Made by a program: the position numbers and the translations under genes. The notes below the pieces were generated by a model that saw only the letters and a program-made list of their open reading frames with translations, did no database searches and was not told the origin of the DNA. Below, piece by piece: positions 30,531 to 64,000 of a stretch of 64,000 nucleotides of DNA (position 1 is the first letter of the stretch; each line of letters opens with the position of its first letter). The DNA is taken from contig CM073325.1 in the NCBI GenBank assembly GCA_037043015.1, positions 1,552,501 to 1,616,500 on the forward strand, given 5' to 3'. This stretch comes from Bryum argenteum. Taxonomy: Eukaryota; Streptophyta; Bryopsida; Bryales; Bryaceae.

Positions 30531-30570
30531 TGTGAGCGGAGAGCGGTGAGCGGTGAGCGTTGAGCCATCA
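30531..30570. repeat. Left terminal heptamer repeats of element 1
   Basis: TGTGAGCGG followed by three to four degenerate copies of AGCGGTG. It is preceded by GGACGTAGCTACCG, which recurs with one change (GGACGTTGCTACCG) immediately before element 2. Those 14 bases may therefore belong to the element end. Confidence 0.75.
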
Positions 30571-38639: not shown

Positions 38640-38935
38640 TTGGTAAGTTTTTGCGACCAAAGGGTTTCATTGTTGCTGGTGCTTTTAGTTCATTGTTGTG
38701 CGTGTGCGTGGTTTGGCTGCACATGCGTGATTCTCAGTTTTTGCGACCAAAGGGTTTCATTGTTGCTGGTGCTTTTGTTCATTGTTGTGGGTGAGCGTGG
38801 TTTGGCTGTGTGTGATTTTGAGTTTTTGCGACCAAAGGGTTTCATTGTTGCTGGTGCTGTTGTTCATTGTTGTGTGTGTGCGTGGTTTGGCTGTGCATGA
38901 TTCTTAGTTTTTGCGACCAAAGGGTTTCATTGTTG
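38640..38935. repeat. ~86-91-bp tandem repeat inside element X, four copies
   Basis: Each unit begins TTTTTGCGACCAAAGGGTTT, at about 38646, 38737, 38823 and 38908. A partial copy of the unit tail (GTTCATTGTTGTGCGTGTGC) recurs near 39265. It lies in the 5' non-coding part of the element and could be an expanded transposase-binding array, but that is inference. Confidence 0.85.
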
Positions 38936-39419
38936 GGTATAGTCTTTGCTCATTGGATGTATAGGAAGTCATTGATCAATTCTCACAGCACGTTTCCTTT
39001 CGCGAGGTTCCTGCAAAACTAGAGAGGTAATTTTGCTATTTAAATGGAATCCATTTACACAATCAAGCGATCATCGATAGAATACTCTATCTCGTAAGAT
39101 AGTTCACAATCATGCATGTTGAATGAGAGGATATAGCGATTGGACTAATACCTTTACAAACCGATCACTTCCAAGTGTGCATGAACTCTTTTATGCCGCA
39201 CCCCATATTCTCCCGAAAAAGCCTTCCTCGGTCACGGTCCACAAGCAATGCCTACTAGTGCTTTTGTTCATTGTTGTGCGTGTGCGTGGTTTCTCAATGG
39301 TGTTTCTCAATGTTGGGTTCTGAGTTGAATTGAGTTTCGGGTTGAATTGGGTTTCTAAATGTACAAGCTTGTGTTCGTGTGTTAGGGTTGAAGAGTTCCT
39401 CTTTGGTTTATTGTTTCGC

Positions 39420-42400: not shown

Positions 42401-42993
42401 GGAAGTTGTGGTTTAAATACGGAGATCATTCAGTACTTGGCAATACAACTTCTTTCTCTTTGAAGGAGAACTTCATTAGTCAGCAGTCATTTATTGATGT
42501 GCAATTGTCCTGTAATTTTGTAGTGTTACTAATCTGTCATTTTCGTGATAAATACTCTCACCTCCTCAGGCTGCTGCATCTTACAGGCAGCGATTCATGC
42601 GAGATCTTTTTCAGTAAGATAGGGGGAATGATTGGCTTAGAACGTGCGTATGATTTTCACGAGCTTGTAAATACAGCTAATACAGTAAACAGATTAGCAG
42701 CGGTTGAGTATGGGGCTAATGGTCTGAAATTTAATAGGGTCCATAACAAAATGACGAACGTCTGGGCTGATTTGCATCCGTTGGCACCAGAGGAGTCTCC
42801 ATGCGACTTGGGGAACTATTCCCTCATTTCTACTAATGATGATGTCATTGCAGCACTGAAAGAAGGGTTGAAAGAGGCTCAACGTCTTCTCAGGGCTCTC
42901 AATATGGGTCCTCGTCCTGGTGCAAATGCTCAAAGTTCAAGGTGGTTCAGCAGTCCTTGGACCTGTGAGTTGGCAGACCGGACGTTGCTACCG
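39420..42993 (+). pseudogene. Element X transposase, 5' part (DDE-type, decayed, split by element 2)
   Basis: Starts at ATG 39420 (MALRIKIYALDYEDAEPRF). Two zinc-finger-like segments follow: CLECNKHHGG..H (about 200-220) and CVSCNQFLQLCPPKRN with downstream H residues. The catalytic-type core has LAEDETKV, GHASDGDNRSQRRLML, HDQDYIHNGKKLINPID and TGSDSCEIFFSKIGG, a D-D-E-like series. Lesions are an in-frame TGA at 40197, frameshifts near 41080, 41425 and 41500-41550, and a shift near 42190. The frame runs into the element 2 insertion. It resembles transposases I have seen in scattered eukaryotes, but I cannot name the superfamily safely. Confidence 0.75.
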
Positions 42994-43002
42994 TGTGAGC
43001 GT

Positions 43003-43037
43003 TGAGCGGTGAGCGGTGAGCGGTGAGCGGTGAGCGG
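43003..43037. repeat. Left terminal heptamer array of element 2
   Basis: Five perfect tandem copies of TGAGCGG, inverted relative to the array at 56644-56699. Confidence 0.95.
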
Positions 43038-43461
43038 TAAGATTTAGAATTTTTAGGGCTGAGTTTGTATTTTTAGTACAAACATTTCTAAAAATAGTTT
43101 TTTTAAAAAAATTTGAGAATAATTTTCGAATATTCTCAAGAATATTCGAATATTCTAGACTTATAACCGTGGATTTAGTGACCCAAACCCGTGGAAATAA
43201 GGCTTTAATTCCCTGAATTTTGTGAGACTTGAGCTACAAAACTCGACAGTAGATCACAAATTTTCAAATGTCCAGAGGTTTCTAAGGTAATATTTCTAAG
43301 TGTTTAGTACTCCAAGTAAGACAAATTGGCAAGGTCTGTTGTACATGTAGGTATTGGTATAATAATTTTTAATAAGTTGTGAAAAAATATCACATACAGT
43401 GTGGAGCACCCAATCATAAGACTAACATATAGCGTACGTAGATGAGGAGATATACGACATT
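43038..43461. other. Subterminal region of element 2, with palindromic GAATATTC words
   Basis: AT-rich, homologous to 30571-30996 in element 1. CGAATATTCTCAAGAATATTCG at 43127 onward is conserved at 30648 onward. It consists of alternating GAA and TTC units, like a transposase-binding or heat-shock-type element. Confidence 0.55.
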
Positions 43462-46400
43462 CTAATCTGTAGCATGGTCTAGGATTCCTCCCTCCAGAAT
43501 CTTCTTCACCTCGTTGAAACTAAGAGTGGCCGCGTGGATGAAGAGGTCAGCATCCGGATCAAATTTGCAAACCAATACCGTGATGAAGTATAGGTGCTTG
43601 TACGGTCGATATGGATCTCTCCTTCCTAACAAAGTAATTGTTTTCTTGAACACTGGGCATGAGCAATCCGGGAATTTACTAATTGAAAGTCTATAAACTG
43701 CATCCGCATCCGACTCCAAGTCTACGATACATCCAAATCCGGGCTGCGGGATCATGGTCACCCTCAGAATTTTGGCCTGCATTGACGTGGCAGACTCAAT
43801 ATTCTTCATGTGCTTTGAAGTCATAGCTGGAATGCGTTTCATGTTCTTCGATCTTCTTGACCTAGGGAACACGTCCGGCTTCTCCGGGACTGGAATATGG
43901 GACAAGTCTCTTGGTGGGGCAGCATTATTGAAAGTGCGGTTTGTAGGAAGCTGTACTTTTTGTGGTAGTCGAAAGCCCGCATTCTCTAACGCCTCCATTT
44001 CATCACGTGTAAGGTTAGTCCCTATCTTAACATGCCATATAGAAGGAATAGGAGGTCTTTCTTGGCTTGGAGAGAATGGCTCAATCCACTTGCGACGATG
44101 ACCCTTCACACACCTGTCAATATCATCCGCACAAAAAAAGAACTGATCAATTTTTCTTGGCCCCTCTTGAGGGCGTTGCCATACTCCGGTGTAAGTTGGA
44201 GCTGCGGTCGCCTTCCCCTTCTGAATAATTCGTGAGTCACATCTTTTTTTACTCTTTCGCATGATACCCCAACAAGCCTTGGCAGAATTCTCCCTCAAAC
44301 GGGCAATGTGCCACAGCCTCTCGTCTACTCTAGTCTCCTGAACAGCAGTCACACGTTCAATACTAGGTCCAGGAAAAGTGGATGGTATTGTCGGTGGCTC
44401 CTCAACTTCATTCTCTTCATGGATAGTACTCAGATTTTCAGCACATGCTCGGGTAACCTTTTTCCCGATTCGTGGACGTTAGTAGCTCACGGTGTCAGGT
44501 CTGTGCGTTTCATCATCAGCTCCAATCGGAACATCAGCCTTACGTTTCTTGGAACCAAACACCTCCGCACCCTCAAGGTGGGCGTCTCGGGTACAAATCT
44601 TTTCAGCTCCTGGATAGTCAGACACTGCCTTTGTGAGGCCTGATGGATCGCCGGTTCGTTGAGCTTTATGGGCAAGACGAAGTAAGAGTTCTTCGGATGT
44701 TGGTCCACTACCACCCTTGCCACCTCCGTTGAAGTCGTGGTAACCCACAACTTGGAGGAAAGCACGAACATAATCATCAACAGCTGCAACGTACAAGTCC
44801 CCACCCTTGTTGCCGGACGCTTGCAACCATTTGTTATGGATAGATTCCGCAAGGTTACATGAAGGCATCTCCGCCAGCTCCTCCGCAGAATATTTACTTT
44901 CCTGCAAGGTGCAAAGACTTTTGACTTAGTAACAAATAAAGTTGGAGACGATATCCAGAGCCGGTTAGACTTTCGTCACAGCAAGTCTGATCTAAAAATA
45001 GAATATTTTTAATTTTTATTTAAAAATAATTGTTACTGAAAAAGATAAAAAATGCATGATATTTTATACTAAAAAGGTAAATATATTTAATAGATTTACT
45101 AGACATCAGTTCATGTGTACATAATTGCTACAGTGACTATGGACTCACCAATTCCATGAAGCCACCCCACTGCCTATACCGGAAATGCCAGAATGCAAGC
45201 CAGTGTTCGAGGTGACCTAATCCTACTTCGGAGGTGGCCTCTGCCTCAGCCATGGTGCGTGCATCTTTGTATTGCTTACAAAGATGTCGATGTTGATCCT
45301 GTAGTTCGTGCACGATGTATTGTTTGGTGTGTTTCTCTAGGGATTGCGTCCAATGGAAGTAGCAAGTCCGCTCGCGGCCTTCCATGGGCACTTTAGGGTC
45401 TCCGGAGCCATAAATTATCCGCAGAGCGTTCCAGTTGGCTTGCGCACTGTCGGCCATGAAACCTTGAAACTGCGGCGCTTCCACTCCGTTCCTGCCCATG
45501 ACGTGGTTTAGGTTCTTCCAGAAGACGATTTGAGCATCTCCGTCTTCAGACTGGAAATCACAGCATGCAATAGTTAAAATGCGGCAGATTTTCGAGTCAT
45601 AAACGTGGCACGCCATGGTCGTCCAGTTCTTGACACGCTTGACATGGTCGAACATCAGCCACGCATGTGACAAGTCGCCTCCGAGCTGCATACGACGAAC
45701 AAGGTCAACACCGCTTCCGGGGCCGACCTCGGACATCTTGAAAATGAAAACTTTGTCACTTTCATCTCCTTGCCCGGGGAACTGGTTACGTTGGATGTAA
45801 GCCCAGTTGCTGAGGCCTCGAAGCTTGGTGATCCCATCAAGAACACCGTATCTGCGCAAGTGCTTAAAAGTGGTAATACGATTCCTGACGCTCGGAGAGG
45901 TCAGCTCCTTACACTGATCGAAGATAGGTTCTAGCTCCTGCAGGGTGAGCTTAGAGGTTACAGGGTCACCTTCTTCACACAGAAGTAAGTTTCCGAGTAA
46001 GTCCTTGCTAGCCTCCATGACTATTTTGGACGTGGTAGCTTGTGGGTTACGTTCTACGTGCTCCTCTATTAACTCATCTATTATTTTACGTGCACATCTG
46101 TAGTCTCCGATCTTGACAGGATGTTCGTGCGTACCGATATGCACACACGCCCGCTCTTGACTCTCCTCTCCAAATACGTAGAAAATTTTAGCAGGGCATA
46201 AAGCAACACAAACGGGTGGTTCTTTGCAGATCTTACAGACGAGTGTAGGAGAAGGAGGAGGTGTGAGGCCGACCGAGAAGGGGTCCTTGGTAAAACCCTC
46301 GAACTCCACTTCATTCACTTGTGCTCTACGGTCAGGTCGTTGCAAGAATCCGCAGTTCCCATTGTGGCATTGAAGATGACCTACACAGTTAGAGTAGCGG

Positions 46401-47230
46401 AAAGACAAACCGAGGTTGTTACTGATGTTAGTAGTCATTGTCCTGGTCCACACATGACCGTCGTATCTTTTGTCCATCCCTTCCATGGATTTGGCTACTT
46501 TGACAGCAGTAGTTGGTAGAACAGGAGGGAGAATGTACAGGACATCACCATTGAAAGTGGGGGGCAGGAAAGAGACGCTGAGAGTACGAATGGAATGGAA
46601 ATCTATTTTTTTGAGTATAGTTTTGTTGCGAGACATGCTACCTAGTCTACGGAGCAAGGAAAGAATGTTTTTGGGTTTTTCGACTTTGGAAGCGGGAAGA
46701 GAAACGGAGGTGGTTCTGAGAGTGTGTTGGGAACCAGACGAGGGCGGAGGCAGAATCGATGATATTCGACGGGACTGGAAGGACGCTTTTCTTTCATCGT
46801 CGGATGAATCAGAAATATCGATTCGGACTTCCAGTCCGGGTTCGACCTTGACACGAGGAAGAATTGGAACAACTGTGGAGATGGTAGAAGAACTACGAGG
46901 AGTAAGGAGGACGGTAGAGGCGTTCATGACGGACTCTGTCAAGCCATACAGTCGATACTGTCCGGGTAGTAGCTTATACATTTTACAATTACTCTCTAGG
47001 TCGACTGGATCGACAAGGACGGAGTAGTGGACAAGATTAGAGTTTGGATCCAAGACATGTTTCTCTAACCACAGAGAGGACTCATCAAACCCAAAACGAA
47101 TTGCTAGCCAAGACGGAGTGACTTCTGCCACTCCATCCACCCCCGCAGGAATGCAGATGGGAGGACTCAAATCCTCAGACCTAATGGCAATGACGTCTGC
47201 AGCGGGAGGTAAAGGAGTGGGGAATGCCAT
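43462..47230 (-). pseudogene. MULE-like transposase with N-terminal zinc-finger-like and C-terminal SWIM regions (one in-frame stop)
   Basis: Exon 1 is 47230-45149 (694 codons) and exon 2 is 44901-43462, joined by a phase-0 intron. The frame of about 1170 codons is open except for TAA at 44479-44481. There is a Ser/acidic region at about 140-190. Zinc-finger-like Cys/His motifs occur at about 250-300 (YSNCVGHLQCHNGNC) and 330-385 (CKICKEPPVC, CVHIGTHEHP). The MULE-type core has MFDHVKR (about 527), MADSAQANW (about 590), CYFHW as the CxxH motif (about 623) and NLAESIHNKW (about 710), supplying D, D, C/H and E. The SWIM-like CSCPVFKK..YRPYKHLYF (about 1105) has Tyr where element 1 has the metal-binding Cys. 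The MAFPTP start aligns with the element 1 start. Upstream in-frame Met codons reach 47299. Confidence 0.85.
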
Positions 47231-47781
47231 GATAGACGTAGGCGAAGAAGACAACATCAACAATTGCGTGGAGAAAGAGAGTCTCAGGTGCGTTTCCATT
47301 GTTCAAATACGAAACATTGGTGTACGGAGTTTGCATACGTATTGAATACAATTTAGACGTAATTTCTTAAAATAACACGTACATATTCCCAATACTATTA
47401 ATTGTAATGATGATGATTTATAAACACACTACCTATAATACTTAAATTATCTGAACTGACAATATTGTATTAAGTACTGACGATTAAAAATATTAGATTC
47501 GTCGATAAAATAAGTAGGTGTAGAAGGTAAAGTGACGGCGGCAGTCATTGTCAGAGATTTAGTTGGGTAATAGATGCGTTCAAAAGTTAGCTTATTTTGG
47601 ATTGTCAGAAACGGTGATAGCGGGATGGTAGGAAATACGCGTTGGCTGATTAGGGTTTCTTAGCCGCCTGCCGGAACTTATATAATGCAGTTCAAATTCA
47701 TAGTTCGTCCTCTTCATTTGCAGCGAGAAGGCTTGGACTCGTTAAGTGGAACGTGACAGAAGTTATCTCATTGGAAGCAGC
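47231..47781. promoter_or_regulatory. Divergent promoter region of element 2
   Basis: Separates the leftward transposase from the rightward accessory 1. It contains GTGACGGCGGCAGTCATTGT, matching the element 1 spacer, and CTTATATAATGC at about 47676 as a TATA-like site for the rightward gene. The rest has diverged. Confidence 0.5.
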
Positions 47782-48516
47782 ATGGAGGAAACCGCTAGCG
47801 GTAGTGAGAGAGGCAAGGAATTAGGTCAGAGGAAGAAGAAGCGGAGGGGTGGCACGAAGTTCACTAATTCAAAAGCACAGAGACGTAGTGCTTTGCGGAA
47901 GCGCGATGGGATAAGCTCTAGCGGCGAAGATCGAGAGCTAGACGAGTACGATATCTTGATCGACGACGATGTCTTACCGCCATTTAGGCGGACTATTAAG
48001 ATGCGATCGCTCAATCTCGACAGTGTTCCGGAGAGTGTTCCGATGGACGAAGCTGAAGATAAGGAGGAGGAAGGGCGTACTAGGCAGAATAGGACGTCCG
48101 ACGAGGTTGTTTACGGGGATGGCGTTGACGATGGAAGTGTATACTCTACATACGAGGTAATAAAGTTCAGTAGGTTATAAACATTTGGATATTCATGATG
48201 GGTATTCTATTCGGAAATATGTATATGGATTAATATGAACATGTGATGTCTTCAGGGCCGTGGGGGATGGGAAGAGGATGACAATCCATCAGGAGATCAA
48301 ACGATAATGTTCGAGGAGAAAAGAGTCAATGATTCATGCGAGAGTGCAGCAACCACTTTTAATCAGAAAACACTTGATGATACAACGGATGGATTTGAGA
48401 CAAGTGGTGAAGAATTAGAGGAGGTACATGAGAAACCCTACTTATTGGTTTACTGGGAGGACGTAGGGTTAGTTAAGTATACAATCAACGAGAAATCATT
48501 CTTTAATATAATGTAG
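47782..48516 (+). CDS. Element 2 accessory protein 1
   Basis: Exons 47782-48156 (125 codons) and 48256-48516 (87 codons with stop), phase-0 GT-AG intron, no lesion seen. RKKKRRGGTKFTNSKAQRR is a strong nuclear-import-like signal. The core RRTIKMRSLNLD is shared with element 1. Both exons are otherwise acidic and Ser/Thr-rich. An in-frame GTG at 47746 precedes the chosen ATG. No known domain is recognised. It is one of the few intact frames in the nest. Confidence 0.72.
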
Positions 48517-49505
48517 CCCAAGAGTTTTGACATGATATAATTTCATGATATGTATGGACCCAAGACTGAATAAGTGATTTTATATTTACTTCATGGTGCA
48601 AATATTGTTTTGATAGTTTTCTAAATGATATTAAAATGGATTGCACGGATTAAGTGGGGTGTTCTAAAATACAGAACATAGTATTGGTAAAATTATCGCG
48701 GAGAAAAAGAACAAAGTAGTCAATGACAAGGAATGTTTAGTGAAGAAGCTTGTCAATTCGCAATGGCCATGCCGGTACTCAATGGCAGCGCAAGGTAGCG
48801 CAATGCCAGCCCAATATTATTAAAGTATACCTTGAAATTGACAAAGGTCGAGGTATGTACCTTTGAGGGAATTATACACTGGGAAGAGACACGCCAGGGT
48901 AGGGACGGACGGCTAGGTCCGGGCAGGTAAGGCACCGACGGGTATGGGCGGTAAGGGAGGGTTCGACGGGAACCGGTCAGGGTAGGTGGGTTGACGGGAA
49001 CCGGCCCGGGTTGGGACGACCCGGGTATAGGCAGGTCAATGCCATGCTAGGGCCGGGTATGGGCGGGCTGGGAGTCGCCGCGCCGATGGCAGCATCCCCT
49101 CGGTCGAACGTCATCTGCGGTGCTTTTCCGCTGTTGCATCGCATGCATCACCGCTCCCTTCGGGGTTTTCCCTGCTTGCCCTCTCGAAGCCTCTGGAGGC
49201 GTTCCCTTCGGGGACGTCGTTTGCATTTCCCGCAAATGTGATTGGCGATTGTGCCAATGGCGGATAGTAAGACAATCTGTATTAATTGAACCCTATTTGG
49301 GGATTCGAGTAAGCCGCAATAGTGATGAGTGCCATGTTGACAGTGCAGTATTTTTAGAAAAGTTGAGGAATCAGCGCTGACTAAAGCAGATTCGACCTGC
49401 CTGACAGTGTTGAATATGGAATTCGGACCTCCTTTGAGAAGTTGATGAAATCTATCACACAACTGTGATTAGCACCGTAATGGGATTGCTTGTGAATTGT
49501 TCAAA
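48517..49505. other. Spacer in element 2 with G-rich simple repeat
   Basis: AT-rich to 48880, then G-rich words (GGGTATGGGCGG, GACGGGAACCGG) to about 49080, with repeated GGG runs that could form quadruplex structures. The accessory 2 5' flank follows. No supported gene. Confidence 0.5.
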
Positions 49506-51234
49506 ATGAAGGAAGGAGGTGCTCAGAACGAAGTTGAAGGACGAATCGCACTCGAGGTCCACGACCAGATGACAATGCTGCAAGGAGAGGATGAGGGCGT
49601 GCTGCGAGGAGAGGAGAAGATCAACATGAGAGGAGAGCAACTAGTCGTCAAGGATTTGGAGAATGTGAGTTCACAATCTTCGGAGTCGAGTCTCTTCTCT
49701 TCCATTTACAGGACTGATCCACATTGGGGCCGATCGTTCAACACTCGAGCCGAGTTGGAGAACTTCCACTCCAGGAACTTGAAGGTAAGAATTGTGCTCA
49801 ACCCTAGATATACTTCATCGAATTGTTTGTCCCCAACAATTTTTAGGTGATTGGGATGCTGGCCCTCTCCAACCCCAGAATTCTAAGTTCCGGCCTTTTA
49901 CATATCCACCTGCATCGATATTCACTAGAGCAGATGCCATCTCGTGGGGCCTCTGGAGATTGCGGACTTGTTGCAAGCAGATGCTGAGCATGCTCGTTGC
50001 CGGAGGGTCTGCCAACGCAGCCCGAGGCTAAGCCCTGCCTTCGACGGCCATTTCGAGTTCCTCGTGGTGATCTGCTGTGTGGGGTGTGTGCATTATTTGA
50101 GCCTGTTGTTTGAGCCTGGTTTGCAAGTTTGAAATTTTTTTTCTGCATCCAACTCCCATCTTTTTCATGCTCTCAGGTTCTGATGCCGCCACCACGAGAC
50201 TGAGCCAAGGCCCCAAGAGGCCGGCCCATATGCAATGAACCGGGGAGCTCAGCTTGATTGGCGCTGCCATAGAGGTCGGCCCATGTGCTATGAACCAGGG
50301 AGCTCAGCTTGATTGGCGCTGCCATAGAGGTCGGCCCATGTACTATGAACCGGGGAGCTTAGCTTGATTGGCGCTGGAGGGTCTGGCAAGCAGCCCGAGG
50401 CTAAGCCCCTGCCTTCAATGGCATTTCGAGGTCCTCGTGGTGATCTGCTGTGTGGTGGGGTGTGTGCATTGTTTGAGCCTGTTGTATGGGTTTGGTTTGA
50501 CAAAATTGTGAGCATGAGGTGTTCCTAAATTCGGAATCGATCAGACAAGCCTGAGACTTTCGTCGACGAAAGTCTGGATCGAATCCGGCACCGCAAGTTT
50601 GAAATTTTTTTTCTGCATCCAGCTTCCTTCTTTTTCATGCTCTCAGGTTCTGATGCCGCCACCACGAGACTGAGCCAAGGCCCCAAGAGGTCGGCCCATA
50701 TGCTAGAAACAGGGGTGCTCAGCTTGATTGGCGCTGGAGGGTCTGCGAACGCAGCCCGAGGCTAAGCCCTACCTTCGACGCCCATTTCGGGGTCCTCTTG
50801 GTGATCTGCCCTGTGGGGTGTTTGACTTGTTTGAGCTTGGTTTGAAAAATTTAGAGGAAGAGGATTCCGATTTTATTGTTTGGTATTTGATTATTGAGTT
50901 GGTGCTTTTTTTGCAGGGTCCTTTAATGTTACATGGAGTGCATACAGAAGAAGATTCCGATGCAGACAGCGACCTCTCGAATTTGAGAGACCATGTGTTG
51001 GCTATAGTGGGGTCCCGTGGTTTAGTTATAGCATTGTCTTCGGTTCCCGAAACTCCACCTCCTGCCTCTTCTGTCCGTCACACTCCATGTGCTGACGTTG
51101 ATCGAGTTGCACGAGTGGTTAACATGCGAATAAAAAAGAATGAGGCAAAAATTGTACGAAATCATGCACTAGCATTAGCTAGACTTGCTCCCAAACGTTC
51201 TCCGCGACTTGCCACAAAGTTGCAGTCTCCTTAA
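49506..51234 (+). CDS. Element 2 accessory protein 2 (two exons)
   Basis: Exon 1 is 49506-49784 (93 codons) and exon 2 is 50917-51234 (106 codons with stop), joined in phase 0. Exon 1 is charged with the core KDLENVSSQSSESSLFSS. Exon 2 has EEDSDADSDLSNLRDHVLA, a Pro/Ser linker (SSVPETPPPASSVRHTP) and a basic C-terminus ending in LARLAPKRSPRLATKLQS, which could bind nucleic acid. Both exons have paralogues in element 1. No domain recognised. The 1.1-kb intron is filled with tandem repeats. Confidence 0.68.
49860..50780. repeat. Nested tandem repeats in the accessory 2 intron of element 2
   Basis: A unit of about 63 bp (core GAGCTCAGCTTGATTGGCGC and GTCGGCCCATGTG) is tandemly repeated three times at about 50210-50380. 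A larger unit containing GTTCTGATGCCGCCACCACG and CTCGTGGTGATCTGCTGTG recurs at about 50040-50260 and 50400-50770. The matching intron of element 1 has a different, unrelated 467-bp array. Confidence 0.8.
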
Positions 51235-51374
51235 TTGCATCTTTACATTATATGATGTGTTTATGATCTACTTATTTACTAAAAGATCATGTGATTCTTT
51301 TTATATATTATTTTTCACTTGACCCTATCTCATTACCTTCGTGGTGTCTTGTATTTGGTTTTCTGGACTGCCAG

Positions 51375-54300
51375 ATGAATATAGCTCAAGATCATCTTAT
51401 TCAAGATGATAAAGCCAACCCGCCTCTTCTTAATCCTCTACAAACTGTATCTTCCGACGGGGATGAAGTCATACTTGATAGTGTGAGAAATGTTGAAGAC
51501 TTGGAAACTGGATTTCCTGAAATTAGTCCTTCGACAAATGGTCGCCAACTTTTGGAGGGCGAATGCAATGCGGTGTCAAGTGACAATCTTCTCGTAGCTG
51601 CAGATATTGATCTACCAACAGAGGACCATGATGGACACCAATCCCTCTCGAATGATGAAGAATCTACATTGCCTGAAGGTGTCAATGTTGGCATTATTCA
51701 CATGCCTGCACATCTTGAAAACAAGGACCCCGACTGGAGTGCGAACGAGATGCGAATGCTCCACAAGAGTGATTCCATTGCAATCATCAACAGGTTACGC
51801 TTCAAACCTGTTAAAAAATCTCGCATGCTTATTCCGCTTTGTCGCCTCGTTTGTTTTCGAAGGTCCGACCGATCTCTGAACAAGATGTCCGAAAACTGGA
51901 GAATGAGTTCAACAAGGGATACCGCGAAGGTGATCGGGTAATGTACGTGTCTCCCTTTGATAGAAAAGGCCGAGAAAAACACGTTGACCCTCAAGAGGTA
52001 CTTTGGACGAACCCGCTTTGGAAAGCCGCGAATGAAGAGTTCGAGAGTACGCTGCGAGCCGATCCAGATCTTCATAACCTTTGTGGCAAATATTTCTATG
52101 TCTACGAAGGTAACCACCGTGTTACAGCGTGGATGCGCCATATTGAGAGATACCACAAGAATGATCCCTCGTGGTACATTTCGGTTGATTGCATCGTTCT
52201 CGATGCCCGTGGAGAGAGCAATCTCCTCCTCGATGCTATGAACGACATTAACTGGTAAGTGAATGTCGAATTTTGTAAAATTTGTTTCCTTTATGATTTT
52301 TTCATACACAATTTTTATCATCTTTCATTCTATGTTGTAGGTCCACTGAACATGATCACGTCAAGGACAGTTTGTGTGCGAAACTGCAACGCATGAGGAA
52401 GTTTGGTAAATTGAAACTCGAAGATTTCAAGGACCTCATTTCTCCCGAAGATTACAGGATCTGTAAAAATGCCAAAGCAAAAAAGGAGACTTGGTATCCT
52501 ATCACTATAGACGTTTTTGTAAAATTCCTATATGCGGTATGTTCCCTATATATGTGCTCGACTCCTTTTCTTCAAATTCATCTAAAAGAACTTCTCATTT
52601 GTGTTCTTGTTGTTATATAGAGGAGGTTAGCGAAGAAATCCGACGATGCTGAAGCTACGTACTACGCCACAGTTCCAAAGGATAAGCAAACTGGACCGGG
52701 AGTATGGAGTGCCATGGACAACGCAATCAAGGCTGAAATCAAATTAATACGTGGCAAGAATTTTGACAAAATGGTCGCTGTGGCCAATATCAAACTCGGG
52801 AAAGTCTTTGCGAGAGAGGTATTGCTTGTTGAGTTCTTTGATTTCTCACACTTTAACTGTCTCTACGTATTACTGCTCTAATCAAAACTGTGATTGTGAT
52901 GTGCAGATTAATTCTCATTACAGCGAGAACCTGAAACCCGATATGACAATCGATCGCTTACAAATGGTGGCCACTACCAATGTTCACTCCGATTTCAAGG
53001 GAAAGTGGCTGCAATGGTGGAACTCATCAGACGAAGTTCGACGATCGTTTCGCTTTCCAGAAGAACGCCCTATGAAAGATAAAGCGTTGGTTTCTTTTTT
53101 ACATCGTGCTTCTCTTTGGGCACAGGTAACTCGCATTTTCGTTTTCTGATAACAAATTTTGAGTTTATATGTTACCTTAATTACTAACATGTTTCTTGTA
53201 TTCTCAGCTTGAGCAATCACTTGAAAGTGAATTGCAGAATCTAATAGACAACGAGAACCTCAACATTGAGTGGTCTAGTGTTGTCCTAAAGCCATCCGCG
53301 TACATTGAGAAGTGGAGGTTGCTCTTATGGGACAAGGCATTCGGCAACTATCTTTCTCCAACTGCAAGTCCGAAGTTCATTAAAGGCTCGGATCTTCGTA
53401 AGATTACTGGAGGCAAAGCCACAATTAAACGACTTGTTTTTCGGTAAGTATTCACTTTCCTATAATATATTATTTAAAGTGGTTCAACGTATTCAATTTT
53501 CTCTCTCTAATTGGTTTATCTTCTTGTAGGTACTTAAAACAAGAGCTTGTTGCAAAGGGAGCATTACCTTCATTCTCAATTCCAATGGAGTTCGAAGACG
53601 TTGCAGTGACGAATGATCCCCGCAGTTTTTTCTCCTCAACCCAACAAGAGCGGTTTACAAACTCCCAATTGTCGACCGGTGGATGGTTCCTAGAGTGCGA
53701 CGACAACTACGTGCACAAAGAGGAGAAGCATCTTCTTCGAAACCTGGCTTCAAACCTTACTGACTCCGCACCGATGGAGATTGACGACGATGACGATGAC
53801 GACCTATCCATCATACCAGTCGCATCCGATCCAATCTCTTCTCCTTCTTCACCAGTTGCAGGGCCCAAGTCTCGCGCAAACCGGAAGCGTCGCAACGTTG
53901 TTGCAGAGCCTGTTGTTGAAGTGGACGAAGATTTGGAAGATATTGCTCCTCCCCCAGAGGACATTGTAGGGCCAGAAGATGCTGATTTGACTCAGGCTTC
54001 AGAGGGAGCGACAAACAATGCAAATCGACGCAGTGGAAGACTGACTCAACTTTCTACTGGTGGACTAACGAATGTTGGGTCCCCTCCTCAATCATTCACC
54101 GTTGACCTCAACTCTCAGCAGTCCCCGCGTCGCCTCAGCGAGCCAGTATTTGCCAAACGCCCTCTTCCGAAACCCAATCACATTGGTAGCAGCTCGTCGT
54201 CAAAAATTTCTGTCACTCTGCCAATGTATCTCGAGAAGGGCAACATTGGAGATTTGGTTCACCAGTTGTCGAAGACTGCAAAATGGGATTCGCAAATCCT

Positions 54301-55720
54301 CGATATCGTCGAGCACATCAAAAAGGTATTATTTCTTACATTTGTCATTTATAATCTTCTACTTATAAATCTTACTTGTAAATCTATTTGCCACTTTCTA
54401 ATATTTGATTTGTATCTCAGATTGGCAAAGACCGTAAGTACCCGTGTTCGGCGATGGAGTATGAACCCAAGCATCCAGGAATTGATCTCATTTTTGCGGA
54501 TGCTCCCGAAAACTTGCCTGTTCGGTGTGTCTCCAACGAAATTCCATCCTGGAATCGGCGTGACAAAACCTACTTTGAGAGCCTCTTCGTGTTTGCCGCT
54601 TATCATTTGACGGACGTTGGAGCCATACTTCTCATGCATCCAAAATGTCGTAGAATCGAGCGTACTCTCGATTCTCGAGTCCGCAACATATAGTTTTCGT
54701 CCTGTTCAAGACCGGTGGGGATATAATCCCTTCCTATGGCCTCTACCGTACCCAAACCGAAAGAGGTGACGTAATGATTCCAATTTTAAATTTCACGATT
54801 CATGATTATTTCCGACTATGCTTCTATGTTAACGTATTTTTACTTGTATTTTGCGACTCACCGCTTCCACATCAAAGTCTATGTTCGTAAAGAGTATGTT
54901 TCAAGTTCCGGACTCGGCAAGTGGCACACGATACGGGGTGTGTGGCAATCGTGCACGATGAGGAGAGACCACCTGAATCTTTGCGAGAAAAGAAACATTA
55001 CGTTATCGTCCGGACGGTGACGCCGTGGCGCGGCTCATGAGAGAAGGACCTCTCCTTCATTCAATGTTTAAATCGATTGTCTCACGGACGACGGAGGTAT
55101 AGTCTTCGATTGGAGCGCTAGTACGGGTAATGTTTCCGTAAACACTACATTCGAGTTCGTTTATACACACTTCGCTTTTCTAACGTGGGCTTCTGTATTT
55201 GTAGGTGCATCTGTCATTGCTTGCGCGCGCTCCAACCGACACCTCATCGCCATGGAACCTAACGAAGAAATCTTTGATGGTGTGCTAGTCGATTACAAGA
55301 ATGGTCGTCCCGGTGATGAAGAAAGTGGAGAATCTGCCCCTCCCGCGGATTATGACTCTGACGAACCGGTCGTGAAGAAGCCACGAAAGTTCATTGGTGC
55401 GTAATTCCATCTTGTATTCTTTTTCTCGATTTTGTATTTAGCACTTACGAATCTGTTGGACTGACTTTCTTTGCAATTTTAGAATCGCAGGTCTGAAGGA
55501 GCGATTGACTCGCAACGCTCATCTCTACAAGAGCCCTCCATCAAAATTCACCCTACCATCGTACGCTGAGCGACTTGCTCAAGAGTTTGTTCAAGCTCCA
55601 TCTCCCATTCTCTCTGACACTCCACGTCGACGTTATAGCAATAGTGTGCTTAAGTTTATAGACTTTGAGGCGATCGGTGTGATCGACTTTAACGGTTCAA
55701 CACCTTCGCCTAGAGTGTGA
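51375..55720 (+). pseudogene. ParB-like/DNA methyltransferase-like protein of element 2 (decayed)
   Basis: Exons: 51375-52254, 52341-52536, 52621-52818, 52907-53125, 53208-53443, 53530-54325, 54421 to about 54770, about 54856-55126, 55205-55396, 55491-55720. The ParB-like motif VYEGNHRVTAW lies in the first exon. A central helical region follows, then an acidic DDDDDD linker. The C-terminal region has LIFADAPENLP, then FDWSAST/GASVIACARSNR, the IV-then-I order of class-beta methyltransferases. Lesions against element 1 are a 1-bp loss near 51860, a frameshift with premature TAG near 54690, a lost acceptor at 54855 (GCAG to GCG), and several indels in the next exon. The C-terminal exon (LKERLTRNAHLYKS to SPRV) is intact and shows the ending missing from element 1. 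Confidence 0.82.
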
Positions 55721-56643
55721 TTTGTTTTCCGATAGGTACTTGGACATGGTACTAGAGTATTCGTTTACCTCGATCTATTACTGCTATAGCATGTATTTGT
55801 GTTTTTCAATATATATGGTTTTATATATTTATTTATTGTGATTATCGTTTATAGCTTAAGCTATACTAAGTGTTTCAAGTATTACTTTAAGTATCTCACT
55901 ACAATGTAATCTAAAGCCATGCTTGACTGTAATGAAGACGTCAGCCCTAATTTTGATGTAACTTCTAAAACTTCAATTTCGATGCACCGGTGTATGTAAA
56001 TGCTTAAGTTCTAAACTAAATGCAGACTAAAAGTTTGAGAAGGTCTTTTTTTATTTCCATTGGAGTGATTGAATTTTGCCAATGTTGGTAGGGGCTATAG
56101 TGCAGTATTTGTATAGCTCAGGATAGCTGATTTAAGACGCAGCGCAACGCTCAAACGAGGCCGACGAGAATCGAACTCGGACCACTGCAATGGCACGTGA
56201 ATGTCTTTTCGTACACCTTACAAGGATACACGGAAAGACGACGTGTAGTGATAATTTTCAGATAATATATGCCGAAACATTTACATATAATTCTAACAAG
56301 TGCAATACGCTATTGATGACGTCAGCCCTAATTAGTCTCTAAAGCTTACTGTCGATAAATTATACTTATTGATTACCTAAATGGATCATCCCAAATTTCG
56401 GTTTATATTTTGGATATGATTTGAATTGTGTTGGTTACACATGATGATGCTAGTCCATAATTTAATTAACTTTTATTTAAACTTACAAGTGTGGATAATT
56501 TTTGAAATATTGTATGACCTATGTCCACGGTTTTGGGTACTTTTATGCCTAAAAATGACCATTTCAAAAATTCTAAACCACCCATTCCATGGTAATAGGG
56601 CCACTAACTTAAATTATTTTTTTTCATTACCGCTCAAACTTTA
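55721..56643. other. Right subterminal region of element 2
   Basis: AT-rich. On the minus strand near 56155-56195, GGTCCGAGTTCGATTCTCG resembles a tRNA B-box, but no acceptor stem or A-box can be paired with it. The last 200 bases are diverged inverted similarity to the left end. Confidence 0.5.
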
Positions 56644-56708
56644 CCGCTCACCGCTCACCGCTCACCGCTCACCGCTCACCGCTCACCGCTCACCGCTCAA
56701 CGCTCACA
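56644..56708. repeat. Right terminal heptamer array of element 2
   Basis: Eight perfect CCGCTCA copies followed by ACGCTCACA, inverted relative to 42994-43037. Confidence 0.95.
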
Positions 56709-56711
56709 CCG

Positions 56712-57538
56712 GTGGTTTCCCCGAATCTGACGAGGAAGGCGATAAGGAAATAGCGCCGGAGAATGATCAAGACGATGAGCAAGACGGATTGCCCTGTACT
56801 GTTGAGCAGGAGACCCGAGATGTGATCACTGAGCTCCTAAACGAGTCTGAGGAGCAGATCAGAACACCTGCAGTGAGTGTGAAGATACTGCCCTATGTCA
56901 TGTACGCTGGCAAAACCATCTACAAATCCACTTTAGTGTCTCAGTTGAATGCGAACCTATTCCTTTCGAAGGACCGATTGACACGAGTGAAGAATTCAAT
57001 ATTTTTCAACAACGCTGACGACTACCTAAGTGCCGCCTCATCGAATTCGAAGATGCTGATAGGGTGTGGTAGCGACTGTGGCATCTACTTCTTAGGTGCA
57101 GGATTACCACAACGTTCCTCCACTGTGACCACTGCTCAGAAACGAACCAGGGGAAAACAGTCGCGAGGTGTTGCAGCAGTCAGAGTATCCCAAGCGGTGG
57201 AGGAGGGATCCTGGTGGATAGGCCGGGTGCAAAGGATCAGAAGACGCAAAGGACGAGGTTATGGTATTCTCAAAGATCCAATTGACTTGATGAATCTGCT
57301 ATCGTCAACCGGGAAGAAAGGAGCTTCGGAGTCTGGCATCCAGATTTACTTGAACTATTATTCGAGGGGCCCAGGTCGGCTCAAATTCAGGTATGATGTC
57401 AGTGACTCTAATTGGGTGGACGTTGAGTCCATTATATCAAGTGTAGCGTTGACGTATAATTCTGCTACGAAAATGTACAGCCTGGATTCTGAAGATGCAA
57501 GTTCTTTGATACCTTCGTTTCCAACAAAAACTGATTGA
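56712..57538 (+). pseudogene. Element X transposase, 3' part, beyond element 2
   Basis: About 275 open codons ending at TGA. It begins with an acidic stretch (PESDEEGDKEIAPENDQDDE), then YVMYAGKTIYKSTLVSQLN, LSKDRLTRVKNSIFF and a basic patch (RIRRRKGRGYG). I read it as the C-terminal continuation of the frame broken at 42993. It lies immediately outside element 2, on the same strand, with no start of its own. Confidence 0.7.
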
Positions 57539-58119
57539 CTCTTCAGGATTAGAGCTCCGGGGATAGTTCTAACTTGTCCTTTTGGAGGACAAGTTTTGCG
57601 TAGGAGTTGTTAGGAGAAGCTGATTTACTGTAGCAGATTCATGAGGAACAATTTCTCTTGGTGTGACCTTTCAGAACATTGCATTTGTAAATGCCACTAT
57701 AAACCTTTAACGTGCAATGCATTTTGAATTTCAGAGGTTCCAAGAGAACCCTTATTTGGGAAGTAATTAAGGCCAATTAAAGGTCTTTACTTCCAATTTG
57801 CCTTTGCTGCCATTGTGTATGTTTTTTGTGAATGATTTCTCGTCCATACGAATGAATGATAAATTTACGTGTGTTAACGATGATCTTTATCTTCTCTTTG
57901 TATGGTTGTTTTTCTAAGATTCATATAAGTAATATATGGTGCAAAAATAAGTCGACCTCGATTTTACAAGTAAGATAAGGTCCAAATATGCTCTTCAAAC
58001 CGTTTTTTTTCTAAGTTAATGGTCTGATAAATTCAAAATTAGGTGCTAAGTAACTCCCCATAAAATACCCTCTGAACGCAGGTGGTACCTAACTTATACA
58101 TGTAGTGCCCCCCCCCGAG
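57539..58119. other. 3' non-coding end of element X
   Basis: AT-rich with a short self-complementary segment near 57575 (TTGTCCTTTTGGAGGACAAG, a stem with a TTTT loop). It ends in the C-run terminus. No gene. Confidence 0.6.
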
Positions 58120-59258
58120 GGACGAAGGTCTGGCGGGGTGAACCTGGATTCGTCATTTTTGCATCCCAATTGTCTGAGCTCGTGGCTTTTCGTGAGTCTT
58201 GCCGTCGCTGCTGGGTCTTCCTGATGATGTACCTCGAGCTTTGGAGAGGGGAGGCCGAACCTCTGGTCTGTTCCGATCTCCTTAGCAGCCTCATCAGAGG
58301 GCCCCGAGGTCGGTAATTGTGTTCGTGTTTGATTGTTCTCATGATGTACCTCGTGCTTGGAGTGAGTGATAGCGGATCCCTGGGGGTGTGTCGATCTCCT
58401 TAGCAACCTGGAGTCAAGGCCCAGATGAAGGGGAAGGCCGTAGGCTGGGATCGAGGAGCATCCTCGTGGACTCGCTCTTCCTTCTGATGGTCATGGTTTT
58501 TCAATTTGGCGGAACCCGGCCCTACATGGGTGGTCGTGGGTGAGTTGTGTTGGCTGAAATGCTTCGTTACCTGCCAGACATTCGTGGACGAAGGTCTGGC
58601 GGGGTGAACCTGGATTCGTCATTTTTGCATCCCAATTGTCTGAGCTCGTGGCTTTTCGTGAGTCTTGCCGTCGCTGCTGGGTCTTCCTGATGATGTTCCT
58701 CGAGCTTTGGAGAGGGGAGGCCGAACCTCTGGTCTCTGCCGATCTCCTTAGCAGCCTCATCAGAGGGCCCCGAGGTCGGTAATTGTGTTCGTGTTTGATT
58801 GTTCTCATGATGTACCTCGTGCTTGGAGTGAGTGATAGCGGATCCCCTGGGGGTGTGTCGATCTCCTTAGCAACCTGGAGTTAAGGCCCAGATGACGCGG
58901 AAGGCCGTAGGCTGGGATCGAGGAGCATCCTCGTGGACTCGCTCTGCCTTCTGATGGTCATGGTTTTTCAATTTGGCGGAACCCGGCCCTACATGGGTGG
59001 TCGTGGGTGAGTTGTATTGGCTGAAATGCTTCGTTACTGGCCAGACATTCGTGGACGAAGGTCTGGCGGGGTGAACGTGGATTCCCCATTTTCATATCAT
59101 AATTTTCTGTACTCGTGGCTTTTCGTGAATCTTGCCGTCGCTGCTGGGTCGTCCTGATGATGTACCTCGAGCTTTGCTGATGTACCTCGAGCTTGGAGAG
59201 GGGAGGCCGAACCTCTGGTCTGTTCCGATCTCTTAGCAGCCTCTTCAGAGGGCCCGGA
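58120..59258. repeat. Satellite-like tandem array, right part
   Basis: Two full 466-467 bp units and a partial one, starting with the second copy of the GGACGAAG target duplication. Unit-to-unit identity is high, about 95 percent or more by eye. The last unit shares the duplicated word TGATGTACCTCGAGCTTTGC with the left part. Confidence 0.9.
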
Positions 59259-59542: not shown

Positions 59543-59854
59543 AAACCGTTAAAGCCACTAGCAGGTCATCCAGAAGAGGATTCCGATGCAGATAGCGACC
59601 TCTCCACTTTGAGAGACTCTGTGTTAGCTTACGTTGAGTCCCGTCGATTAGTAATACCATTGTCGTCGGTTCCTAAAACTCCGCCTTCACTCACCCCTGT
59701 CCGTCAAACTTCACGCGTTGATGTTGATCGGGTTGCGATTACGAGGCGTATTAAGATGAATGAGGACAAAGCTCATCGTATACAAGAGAAAGAATTAGCT
59801 AGACTTGCACCCAGACGTTCTCCGCGACTTGCCGCAAAGTTGCTATCTTCTTAA
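59543..59854 (+). CDS. Element 1 accessory protein 2, exon 2
   Basis: 104 codons with stop after a TTGCAG acceptor in phase 0. It reads KPLKPLAGHPEEDSDADSD, a Pro/Ser linker and the basic C-terminus LARLAPRRSPRLAAKLLSS, closely matching element 2. The exon is intact, but its exon 1 is at 36901-37101. Confidence 0.65.
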   Translation, partial: KPLKPLAGHPEEDSDADSDLSTLRDSVLAYVESRRLVIPLSSVPKTPPSLTPVRQTSRVDVDRVAITRRIKMNEDKAHRIQEKELARLAPRRSPRLAAKLLSS

Positions 59855-59997
59855 TTGTATCCATTACTTATATGATATGATTATCATATAATTCTAATTA
59901 TAAAAAAGGTTTTAAATTAATTTATGTATCTCTTTGTTAGTTTGATATCTTCTTATTCATTTTGTGCTATGTTGTATTTTGGTTTTTCTATTGTCAG

Positions 59998-62900
59998 ATG
60001 AACATAGCTCAAGTCCAATCTGTCCCAGACGAAGAAGCCACGCCAACTCCGCTTCATTCTCCACCAACTCGATCCCTTGATGAGACTGAACTCTTACATG
60101 ACAGTGGCAGAAGTGCTCAAGACATGGGCAACGGAGTTCAAGAGGAAAGTCCAGTGGAAACTGACTTTGAACCTCAACCCATGCACGATCGCGATAAAGA
60201 CGTCTCTCATTCTGAAGATGAAGAACCTCCACTGCCGGGAAGTGTCAACGTCGGGATCGTCCACATGCCCCCTCATCTCCAAAACAAAGATCCCGACTGG
60301 AGTGCGAATGAAATGCGAATGATTCACAAGAGTGATTCAATCGCCATAATCAACAGGTTGCGATACAAGCCTGCAAAAAAGTCACGCATGCTAATTCCAT
60401 TGTGTCGTCTTGTTTGTTACCCTAAAATTCGACCTATCTCCGAACAAGACGTCAGAAAGTTGGAGAATGAGTTCAACAAAGGCTACCGCGAAGGCGACCG
60501 GGTCATATACGTTTCTCCCTTCGACAGAAAAGGGAGAGAGAAGATGATTGACGACGGAGATGCAGTGTGGTCAGATCCACTTTGGAAATCTGCAAATGAA
60601 GAGTTCGAGAAGGTGTTGCTGTCCGATCCGGATCTTCAAGACCTAAGTGGTAAGTACTTTTACGTGTACGAAGGTAACCACTGTGTTACGGCGTGGATGC
60701 GTCACATCCAAAGGTACCATAAGATGGATCCTTCGTGGCACATCTCCGTGGATTGTATCGTACTTGATGCACGAGGAGAGAGCAACCTCTTGCTTGACGC
60801 TATGAACGACATAAATTGGTGAGTCACTCTCATATGTTTCAAATACAATTGAATTGTATTCTACATATCTTCAATATCTCTCATGTTTCATCCGACTGTG
60901 CAGGTCTACTGAACATGACCATGTCGAAGACGGTTTGTGTGCGAAATTGCAGCGCATGAGGAAGTTTGGAAAATTGAAACTCGAGGATTTCAAGGATCTG
61001 ATATCTCCTGAGGATTACAGAATTTGCAAGAACGCTAACGCAAAAAAAGATACTTGGTATCCTGTAACTGTTGACGTTTTTGTAAAGTTCTTATACGCGG
61101 TAAGTTGGGATCAAAGTGTCTCACTTTTGATTATTTCTGTTTGGTTCTACACAACATATTAATCAGCTTATATGTTATACAGAGGAGATTAGCAAAAGCA
61201 TCAGATGACGCTGAAACAAATTACTACGCCACCGTCCCAAAGGAGAAACAAACGGGACCCGGAGTATGGAGTGCCATGGATAATGCAATCAAGGCTGAAA
61301 TCAAGTCCATTTGAGGCAAAAACTTCGACAAGATGGTCGCTGTGGCAAACCATAAACTTGGGAAAGTATTTGCGAAGGAGGTAAAAAATTTATCCCTTTC
61401 AAGTATATATGACTATATTTGTATTCATGATTCATAACTCGACTCTTACTTATGAATTTCATGTGCAGATTTATTCCCATTACAGCAAGAATCTGAAACC
61501 CGATATGACAATCGATCGCTTACAAATGGTTGCTACTACAAATGTTCATTGCGATTTCAAGGGAAAGTGGCTCCAATGGTGGAACTCATCAGACGAAGTT
61601 CGACGATCTTTTCGCTTCCCGAAGGAACGTCCAATGAAAGATAAAGCTCTGGTGGCATTTCTGCATCGCGCATCTCTTTGGGCACAGGTATCTTTACTTA
61701 ACTCCACGTGTTGTTTAAGTTAGAATCCTTATGGTATTTTCATCATTAACTTGTTTTTCTTTCACAGCTCGAGCACTCACTACAGAGTGAATTGCAAAAC
61801 CTGATTGACAACGAGAACCTCAACATTGAGTGGTCTAGTGTTGTCCTAAAGCCATCTGAGTATGTGGAGAAGTGGAGGTTGCTCTTATGGGACAAGGCAT
61901 TCAACAACTATCTTGGTCCTAATGCAAGCCCAAAGTTCATCAAAGGCTCAGATCTTCAGAAGATTACGGGGGGCAAAGTAACAATTAAGCGGCTTCTGTT
62001 CCGGTAAGTTTCTAATGTACTCTTCACTATTAATAAAAATGGAACAACTTTTTCTATCTTCACTAACTGTGTTGTTCACATTTTTATAGGTACCTAAAAC
62101 AAGAGCTCGTTGCGAAAGGAGCATTAGCTTCGTTCTCCATTCCAATGGAGTTCGAGGACATTTCCGTCACGAATGATCCCCGCAGCTTTTTTTCCACAGC
62201 CCAGCAAGAACGGTTTACCAACTCCCAATTGACGACCGGTGGATGGTTCCTGGAGTGCGACGACAACTACGTGCACAAGGAGGAGAAGCATCTTCTTCGG
62301 AACCTTGCTTCTAACCCAGCTGACTCTGCACCGATGGACATTGACGACGATGACGATGACGACCTCTCCATTTTACCAGACGCACCTGATCCAATCTCTT
62401 CTCCTTCTTCACCAGTTGCAGTGCCCAAGTCCCGTGCAAACATGAAGCGACGCAACGCTGTTGCAGAGCCTGTTGTAGATCTTGAGCAAGAATCCGAAGA
62501 AAATGCTCCCCCCGGAGAGGACATTGCAGGGCCTGAAGATGCTGATCTGACTCAGGCTTCAGCGGGAGCGGCAATCAATACAATTCGACGCGGTGGAAGA
62601 TTGACTCAACTTTCTACAGGTGCACTTACGAATGCTGGGTCCCCACCTCAATCATTCACCGTTGACCACAACTCGCAGCAGTCCCCACGTCGTCTCAACC
62701 AGGGAATTTTCGCCAAACGCCCACTTCCGAAACCCAATCACATTGGTAGCAGCTTGTCGTCGAAAATATCTGTCACACTGCCAATGTATCTGGAGAAGGG
62801 GAACATTGGAGACTTGGTTCACCAGTCATCGAAGACTGCAAAATGGGATTCGCAAATCCTAGATATCGTCGAGCACATCAAGAAGGTATTATTTCGTATA

Positions 62901-63960
62901 CTTGTCATTCAAATTCACCTTATTACGTTTTGATGCTTGTAACTATATTAGCCACTACCTAATTGTTGACTTGTTTCTCAGATTGGAAAAGACCGTAAGT
63001 ACCCGTGTTCGGCAATGGAGTATGAACCAAAGCATCCAGGCATTGATCTCATTTTTGCAGATGCTCCCGAGAACCTGCCCGTACCGGGTGTGTCGCCAAC
63101 AGAAATTCCATCCTGAAACCGGCGTGACAAAACCTACTTTGAGAGCCTCTTCGTATTTGCCGCGTATCATTTGACAGACGTTGGAGCCATTCTTCTGATG
63201 CATCCAAAATGTCGGAGAATCGAGCGCACTCTCGATGCCGAGTCCCATACATATAGTTTTCGTCTTGTTCGAGACTGGTGGGGATATAATCCCCTTCCTA
63301 TGGCATCTACCGTACCAAAACCGAAAGAGGTACGTATCATAATCTAATTTTCAATTTCGCAATTCATGGTAATTGCCTTCTTTGCATCTATATTAATGTA
63401 TCTATACTTGTGTTTTGCAGACTCACTGCTTCCATATCAAAGTGTATGTTCGCAAAGAGTTTGTTTCGAAGTTCCAAACTCGGCAAGTCGCACACGCATA
63501 CGCGGGTGTGGCAATCGTACCTGATGAGGAAGACCACCTCTGTAACTTTGCAGAGAAAGAAACCTTGCGTTATCGTCCGGACGGTACGCCCTGGCGAGGC
63601 TCACGAGAGAAGGACCCCTCCTTCATTCAGTGTTTTATCGATTGTCTCACGGACGAGGGGGGTATAGTGTTCGACTGGAGCGCAAGTACAGGTACTGTTT
63701 CCGTACACTCTACATTAGAATTTGTTTTCACATTTCGCATTTTTAACGTGGGCTTCCGATTTTGTAGGTGCATCTGTGATTGCTTGCGCGCGCTCCAACC
63801 GATACCTCATCGCTATGGAACCTGACGAAGAGATCTTTGATGGTGTACTCGCGGATTACAAGAACGGACCTTCCGGTGATGAGGAAAGTGGAGAATCAGC
63901 CCCCCCCCCCTGACTATGACTCTGACGAACCGGTCGTGAAGAAACCACGAAAGTTCATTG
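59998..63960 (+). pseudogene. ParB-like/DNA methyltransferase-like protein of element 1 (runs to window end)
   Basis: Exons: 59998-60818, 60904-61099, 61183-61380, 61469-61687, 61768-62003, 62090-62885, 62982-63329, 63421-63691, 63768-63960. All junctions are GT-AG with phases matching element 2. N-terminal 80 residues are acidic and Ser-rich. A conserved block begins VNVGIVHMPPHLQNKDPDWS, then VYEGNHCVTAW (about 224; Arg of the ParB-type GNHR replaced by Cys). The acidic DDDDDDD linker lies in exon 6. LIFADAPENLP is at about 850 and FDWSAST/GASVIACARSNR at about 1020-1040, an N4/N6 class-beta order with motif IV reading DAPE instead of [DNS]PP[YFW]. Lesions are TGA at about 61312 (Arg in element 2), TGA at about 63117 (Trp in element 2), and one extra C in a run at 63900-63910. 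Full length would be about 1170 residues. Confidence 0.82.
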
Positions 63961-64000
63961 GTGGGTATTACCATCTTGTATTCTCTTTTTCAATTTTAAA

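Follow-up and report, generated by a model that had tools for sequence, protein, structure and literature searches.

The N4CMT protein of bdelloid rotifers is reportedly a bacterial-type amino-methyltransferase gained by a eukaryote. In these rotifers N4-methylcytosine (4mC) has been reported as a working epigenetic mark (PMC8885841, in part). Proteins in which a ParB fold is fused to an N6_N4 methyltransferase (PF02195 and PF01555) are known from phages and bacteria according to the available part of PMC12704722, which gives sulfiredoxin as the commonest eukaryotic representative and in whose main text the words transposon, plant and moss do not occur. In Arabidopsis the VANC protein binds tandem repeats in non-coding parts of its VANDAL elements and induces loss of silent marks (PMC10398659, in part), and retrotransposons of dinoflagellates and charophytes carry DNA methyltransferases (DNMTs), which are C5-cytosine enzymes and were tested in yeast (PMC5890265, in part). 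Here we describe a stretch of 64,000 nucleotides from the moss Bryum argenteum (assembly GCA_037043015.1, contig CM073325.1, positions 1,552,501 to 1,616,500, forward strand; the whole stretch is from now on referred to as the window), which holds a complete terminal inverted repeat (TIR) DNA transposon, element A. Beside a transposase-like gene it carries a ten-exon gene, the product of which appears to descend from a class-beta N6/N4 DNA methyltransferase and is probably non-catalytic.

When comparing the moss gene with the ParB-N6_N4 fusions of phages and bacteria (PMC12704722, in part), both have a ParB-like part followed by a class-beta part and both are associated with mobile elements, but the moss gene differs in being borne by a eukaryotic DNA transposon, in its ten exons, its long middle and linker and its altered catalytic motifs, and in that its ParB part is unconfirmed. 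The VANDAL group of Mutator-like elements (MULEs) with VANC (PMC10398659 and PMC5735166, both in part) resembles the moss element in having an accessory protein beside the transposase, non-coding tandem repeats and diversified families. This likeness is one of element organisation, and no methyltransferase descent of VANC is described in the available part of PMC10398659, unlike what is proposed for the moss protein. The DNMT retrotransposons (PMC5890265, in part) are likewise eukaryotic transposable elements with an acquired DNA methyltransferase gene, whereas the moss element is a DNA transposon with a gene of class-beta N6/N4 type and altered motifs, and in contrast to the working 4mC mark of the rotifers (PMC8885841, in part) the moss gene is element-borne and probably non-catalytic. 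In the available parts of this literature the transposons found described with DNA-methyltransferase genes are retrotransposons with C5-methyltransferases, and a gene such as the present one was not found in the titles and abstract openings of the papers listed from the open full-text literature, a scope outside which most subscription journals and bioRxiv fall.

The first-pass annotation of the window proposed that ten-exon genes at 51375 and 59998 (genes A and B) encode the same architecture of ~1170 residues, and this was borne out by a nucleotide identity of 81% over 3.8 kb, a common exon layout with short introns and the presence of the motifs GNHRVTAW, an acidic linker, LIFADAPEN and FDWSAST/GASVIACARSNR. 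The two genes do not belong to one element, as element A sits inside the older, split element of gene B. In gene A, on the plus strand, exon 1 (51375–52255) encodes the N-terminal ParB-like region with GNHRVTAW at ~52110–52135 and a frame break near 51860, exons 2–5 (52342–53444; ~52342–52536, 52621–52818, 52907–53125 and 53208–53444) the helical middle, exon 6 (53531–54325) the end of the helical part together with an acidic and basic linker, and exons 7–9 (54422–55398) the class-beta methyltransferase-derived domain with DAPE at motif IV and FDWSAST/GAS at motif I, followed by exon 10 (55490–55720). Joining exons 1–9 of gene B gives 1094 residues, or ~1170 with exon 10 taken from gene A; exon 10 of gene B itself lies past the end of the window. 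Neither window copy is intact. The reading frame of gene A is interrupted in exons 1, 7 and 8; in gene B, exons 3 and 7 contain in-frame stops, exon 9 is broken and GNHC stands in place of GNHR. The relatives are in a better state: among the 13 rows compared (with exons 7 and 8 of gene A dropped) seven have stop-free aligned exons, and stops are likewise absent from the aligned exons of L045 and L046, two copies of greater divergence.

A search of the genome (258.8 Mb in 25 contigs) revealed at least 144 exon-6 matches (144 of 1077 candidates scored). A protein search with the whole gene gave three hypothetical proteins of Ceratodon purpureus (50–53% identity, 71% cover) and a search with exon 1 gave 12 metagenome relatives (43–66% identity). 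Ten of the latter stop at the exon-1 splice point or at most two residues from it while two continue past, which is as expected for exons of a eukaryotic gene. Together with the low ratio of nonsynonymous to synonymous divergence (dN/dS) given below, the exon-6 matches and the Ceratodon relatives confirm that the gene is real and not a product of chance. No viral relatives were found in two IMG/VR scans, with the exon-1 alignment and the Ceratodon alignment respectively, nor bacterial relatives in GTDB genomes with the exon-1 alignment, each scan using two short peptide patterns (from the middle region in the Ceratodon scan) and thus being able to detect only close relatives; a PDB sequence search gave no relevant match. 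The gene also has another family, strongly diverged from the main one (53–69% protein identity per exon), which is situated at L017:5784-9700, upstream of a main-family copy on contig C2. Contig C1, making up 17% of the genome, holds 91 of the 144 scored exon-6 copies where ~24.5 are expected. Taken with the dN/dS values above 1 among C1 copies (below), this suggests that C1 may be a chromosome of low recombination, perhaps a sex chromosome, on which dead copies collect.

Ten gene copies from the 144 scored matches were fetched together with ~17.5 kb each. Both ends and the transposase-like gene are present in five of them (c5_216, c1_314, c1_50, c7_79 and c7_149), and a transposase was not found within the fetched stretch of the remaining five. 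All five complete relatives are flanked by perfect direct repeats, these target duplications being 10 bp in four copies (GGTCGATCAC, CCAACACCGT, CATTGCCGCA and GTGGTGAAGT) and 9 or 10 bp in c7_79 (ACTATTTTA or CACTATTTTA), depending on where a run of C ends. Element A itself spans 13,743 bp (42980–56722), from GGACGTTGCTACCGTGTGAGCG to CGCTCACACCGGTGGTTTCCCC, where the homology of its relatives ends, and no target duplication was seen around this window copy. The ends are short, imperfect and inverted and contain arrays of a 7-bp unit, at the left GTGAGCG in 6.3 copies (42995–43038, plus strand) and at the right the reverse complement of that unit (ACCGCTC) in 9.3 copies (56643–56707, plus strand). 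In the five complete relatives exact units occur 2–4 times at the left end (as GAGCGGT), 3–5 times at the right end and once or twice elsewhere. The transposase-like gene, recognised from motifs by eye, is located at 43465–47302 on the minus strand (open reading frames (ORFs) 45140–47302, 44482–44925 and 43465–44478) and has a short deletion compared with other copies, and the methyltransferase-like gene is the second gene, on the opposite strand. The non-coding stretch between the two contains 55-bp tandem repeats (50216–50376).

The linkage of the two genes was followed through the genome using a transposase list of 112 rows, from which one short fragment of a preceding copy was removed. In 28 of the resulting 111 matches (111 of 1414 candidates scored) the gene lies within 40 kb on the expected side and in opposite orientation, and in five it lies on the wrong side; with an exon-7 list (150 of 952 candidates scored, Ceratodon query) the gene is on the expected side and strand in 26, on the wrong side in two and on the same strand in six. 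The proposal that a moss DNA transposon carries the gene is thus upheld by the ends, the target duplications and the linked transposase-like gene.

Regarding the superfamily, the target duplications fall within the MULE range, given as 8–11 bp in the available part of PMC6446971, and because of this length MULE is our best guess for the element, a putative member. The order of transposase-like motifs, D, D, CxxH, AES and a C-terminal CxCP...KH (SWIM-like), was seen by eye in several copies.

The C-terminal region was proposed to follow the motif order of class-beta N4/N6 methyltransferases, and both homology and colinear motifs agree with this. In PHROG the region comes closest to DNA methyltransferases (phrog_3008, with E 2.5e-5 for P0001 and 1.3e-4 for window B), a match independent of how the phage enzymes mentioned below were chosen, and PF01555 is matched under its curated cut-off (best 18.3 versus 26.7 bits, E 0.0024; E 0.036 for gene B). 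Searches with tblastn found matches at E 10 in 290 of 50,697 phage records, the best having E 3e-3; among the 12 matches listed 11 are named, and all 11 are methylases. At E 1 there are matches in 30 of 72,556 plasmids, and the 15 listed comprise 14 site-specific DNA methyltransferases and one nameless match. Five phage methylase matches were examined for ParB fusion and all five are short stand-alone genes. An hhalign comparison with five phage enzymes reached E 4.5e-7 (Prob 92.6) across the 54 columns surrounding motif I, against Prob 0.3 and E 0.22 for reversed phage sequences; the enzymes were drawn from matches of the same query and the comparison is therefore support and no independent test. 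The C-terminal part is accordingly a homologue of class-beta N6/N4 DNA methyltransferases.

An alignment with the same five phage enzymes using MAFFT is colinear, pairing D-x-P-Y with DAPE, HPTQKP with GSREKD and LDxxMGSGTTGVAC with FDWSASTGASVIAC, and motif IV precedes motif I as in class beta N6_N4 methyltransferases. DAPE is found in seven of nine moss rows (DVPE in c2_div and HAPE in c1_364), and in all nine the aromatic residue of D-x-P-Y is replaced by E. At motif I all nine carry SASTGAS or SANTGAS, with further variation in single decaying copies, the first glycine of the glycine-rich motif being S, and HPTQKP is GSREKD in most rows, while the acidic residue after motif I is retained (LIALE, LIAME). 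The aromatic residue of D-x-P-Y and the glycines of the S-adenosylmethionine (SAM) motif are required for catalysis. With the aromatic residue of the catalytic D-x-P-Y gone and the glycine-rich SAM motif changed in the nine rows, this is a selected protein that is probably non-catalytic. An AlphaFold2 model of P0001 had a mean pLDDT of 33 (low confidence).

The N-terminal region was searched in the same manner, and eight of ten exon-1 sequences, which are closely related to each other, match phrog_1033, a ParB-like partition protein (best E 0.0018), as do seven of 18 in a wider set (best E 0.0021), while the best of nine shuffles and one reversal reached E 0.068, to other families. The GxxR motif (Box II) is GNHR in 11 of 12 exon-1 rows, the other being GNHC of gene B, and its R is nearly invariant across 18 rows. 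AlphaFold2 of exon 1 gave a mean pLDDT of 41 (low confidence). On these sequence matches a ParB ancestry of the region is somewhat favoured.

Selection on the gene was analysed with the Nei-Gojobori method for 15 rows, that is 105 pairs, of which 14 were saturated and not computed, four had a synonymous divergence (dS) below 0.1 and 87 had dS of at least 0.1. In the 87 diverged pairs dN/dS lies between 0.063 and 0.239, at or below 0.13 in 74 and at or below 0.15 in 81, with 0.066 over 576 codons for genes A and B and 0.091 over 862 codons for L045 and c5_216. For the methyltransferase exons alone, 59 diverged pairs gave 0.058–0.241 (at most 0.13 in 34), seven close pairs gave 0.10–2.74 and 39 pairs were not computed; for exons 1–2, 64 pairs gave 0.023–0.382 (at most 0.13 in 58). 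The four pairs with dS below 0.1 had values of 1.56, 1.56, 2.30 and 0.45, those above 1 being comparisons among three of the four compared C1 copies, as for decaying copies. These ratios indicate that the gene is under purifying selection. In many cross-family pairs the synonymous divergence of the 3' exons (7–10) is ~0.25–0.5, far below that of exon 1 or exons 1–2 (often above 1), a pattern which suggests that families have exchanged the 3' part by recombination or gene conversion.

Taken as a whole, the element is a moss TIR transposon, probably of MULE type and ~13–15 kb in length, with a transposase-like gene and a ten-exon gene for a protein of ~1170 residues, which would derive from a bacterial or phage-type ParB-like/N6-N4 methyltransferase and the methyltransferase half of which has retained the motif layout of its family and lost catalytic residues. 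We infer that this protein may be an accessory that recognises specific DNA sequences: a pseudo-methyltransferase, possibly combined with a nucleotide-dependent ParB-like clamp, whose targets would be repeats of the element itself, be it the terminal 7-bp arrays or the tandem repeats of the intergenic stretch. Once bound, it could protect the element against silencing by the host, in the way VANC acts on VANDAL elements, or it could assemble the transposition complex. We regard the chances for and against this explanation in its entirety as evenly balanced; the altered motifs together with the constraint are better explained by a DNA-binding pseudo-methyltransferase, whether for protection or as an aid to transposition, than by an active enzyme. 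A more specific version, rather unlikely in our view, is self-recognition by a captured phage-type ParB/methyltransferase, where a nucleotide-switched ParB-like clamp would load at the terminal 7-bp arrays and the dead methyltransferase half would read the element sequence, the complex shielding the element from silencing or pairing its ends.

Several results weigh against the accessory protein as proposed. For the transposase, the Pfam MULE model PF10551 is unmatched at E 1 or 10, the genome's 52 matches to PF10551 do not include this gene, and hhalign against two PF10551 proteins of the same genome (those with a usable reading frame among six fetched loci) scored below the reversed control, so that the duplication length and the motif order seen by eye fit the original MULE-like designation and the family model does not. 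For the ParB part of the original proposal, the GNHR motif and the weak phrog_1033 match speak in favour, but Pfam and NCBIfam gave no ParB match for the gene, and hhalign against nine ParB-like proteins (YbdM and eight phage proteins) was not significant, though GNHR aligns with their GFHR. Moreover, a local HMM of the same nine scored the moss exons below the best shuffles, a whole-genome PF02195 search gave one sub-cut-off match, dissimilar to the gene, and recovered zero gene copies, and the AlphaFold2 model did not support a ParB fold; YbdM as ParB query had close relatives among the best 120 of 8000. Finally, 83 of the 111 transposase matches have no scored gene copy nearby (the gene list being the best 144 of 1077), which could mean that some elements can do without the gene and that elements lacking it exist. 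An absence of the gene at these 83 is not implied, as sampled lists and nested insertions blur the linkage; in a 10-kb stretch beside a transposase copy on C10 other insertions interrupt and the partner gene was not reached.

Among the alternatives, the protein could be a transposition cofactor only, joining the two ends via the 7-bp arrays or selecting the target site, and take no part in silencing, as might be read from the near-confinement of exact array units to the ends in the five complete copies. Two-gene MULEs are known. Against this, many transposase copies that are 95–98% identical have no scored gene nearby and mobility may thus not depend on the gene, and we consider the cofactor possible though on the unlikely side. 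Less probable still, and decidedly doubtful, is an active enzyme that methylates adenine N6 or cytosine N4 of the element DNA with an unorthodox active site, thereby evading silencing or directing the transposase. The homology to phage class-beta enzymes, the acidic residue kept in LIALE/LIAME and the strong conservation agree with such activity, but not the E in place of the D-x-P-Y aromatic residue in nine of nine rows, the S for the first glycine or GSREKD for HPTQKP in most rows, and the marking of element DNA by methylation that the first-pass annotation suggested is accordingly unlikely. MULEs tend to pick up pieces of host genes (PMC6446971, in part), but a captured passenger fragment without role is highly improbable given the full-length gene across diverged families, its low dN/dS and constant exon layout, and its relatives in Ceratodon and 12 metagenome sequences. 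An origin as remnants of an integrated large DNA virus, for which the occurrence of ParB-like and methyltransferase genes in phages would speak, is just as improbable in view of the two IMG/VR scans without a close relative, the transposon ends, the duplications and the ten exons.

When analysing the remainder of the window, the element of gene B was found in two parts. The left part (30516–36100), with its own end and a transposase-like gene (30996–34784, minus strand), has 89.9% identity to the left part of the complete element c7_79, and the right part (59573–64000, plus strand), with exon 1 from 59998 and exons 2–9 at ~60905–63965, has 82.9% identity to c7_79. As c7_79 matches both 30516–36100 and 59573–63999, gene B belongs to an older element starting at 30516, which later insertions including element A have split. 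Its right end was not found in the 6 kb from 63501 on. Other inserted DNA between the halves occupies 38062–42979 and 56723–58120 and contains 85-bp tandem repeats (38646–38935) and the ORFs 39324–43002, with zinc-finger-like cysteines seen by eye, and 56420–57535; the ORFs scanned in this DNA have no Pfam match. Tandem repeats of 467 bp (2.3 copies, 58120–59176) precede gene B, and related copies are located at 37232–38062 on the far side of element A. Elsewhere in the window, on the minus strand, ORF 12018–12929 may encode a pentatricopeptide-repeat protein and ORF 22986–24737 a Golgi GlcNAc-transferase II, going by resemblance seen by eye.

If the proposed DNA-binding accessory is correct, a DNA transposon in which purifying selection maintains a methyltransferase of class beta, probably without catalytic activity, in well over 100 copies would show a novel means by which elements read or shield their own DNA, and the ParB/methyltransferase architecture of phages would be extended to a eukaryotic mobile element. 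The idea that the element reads or shields its DNA in this way could be tested in laboratory mosses.

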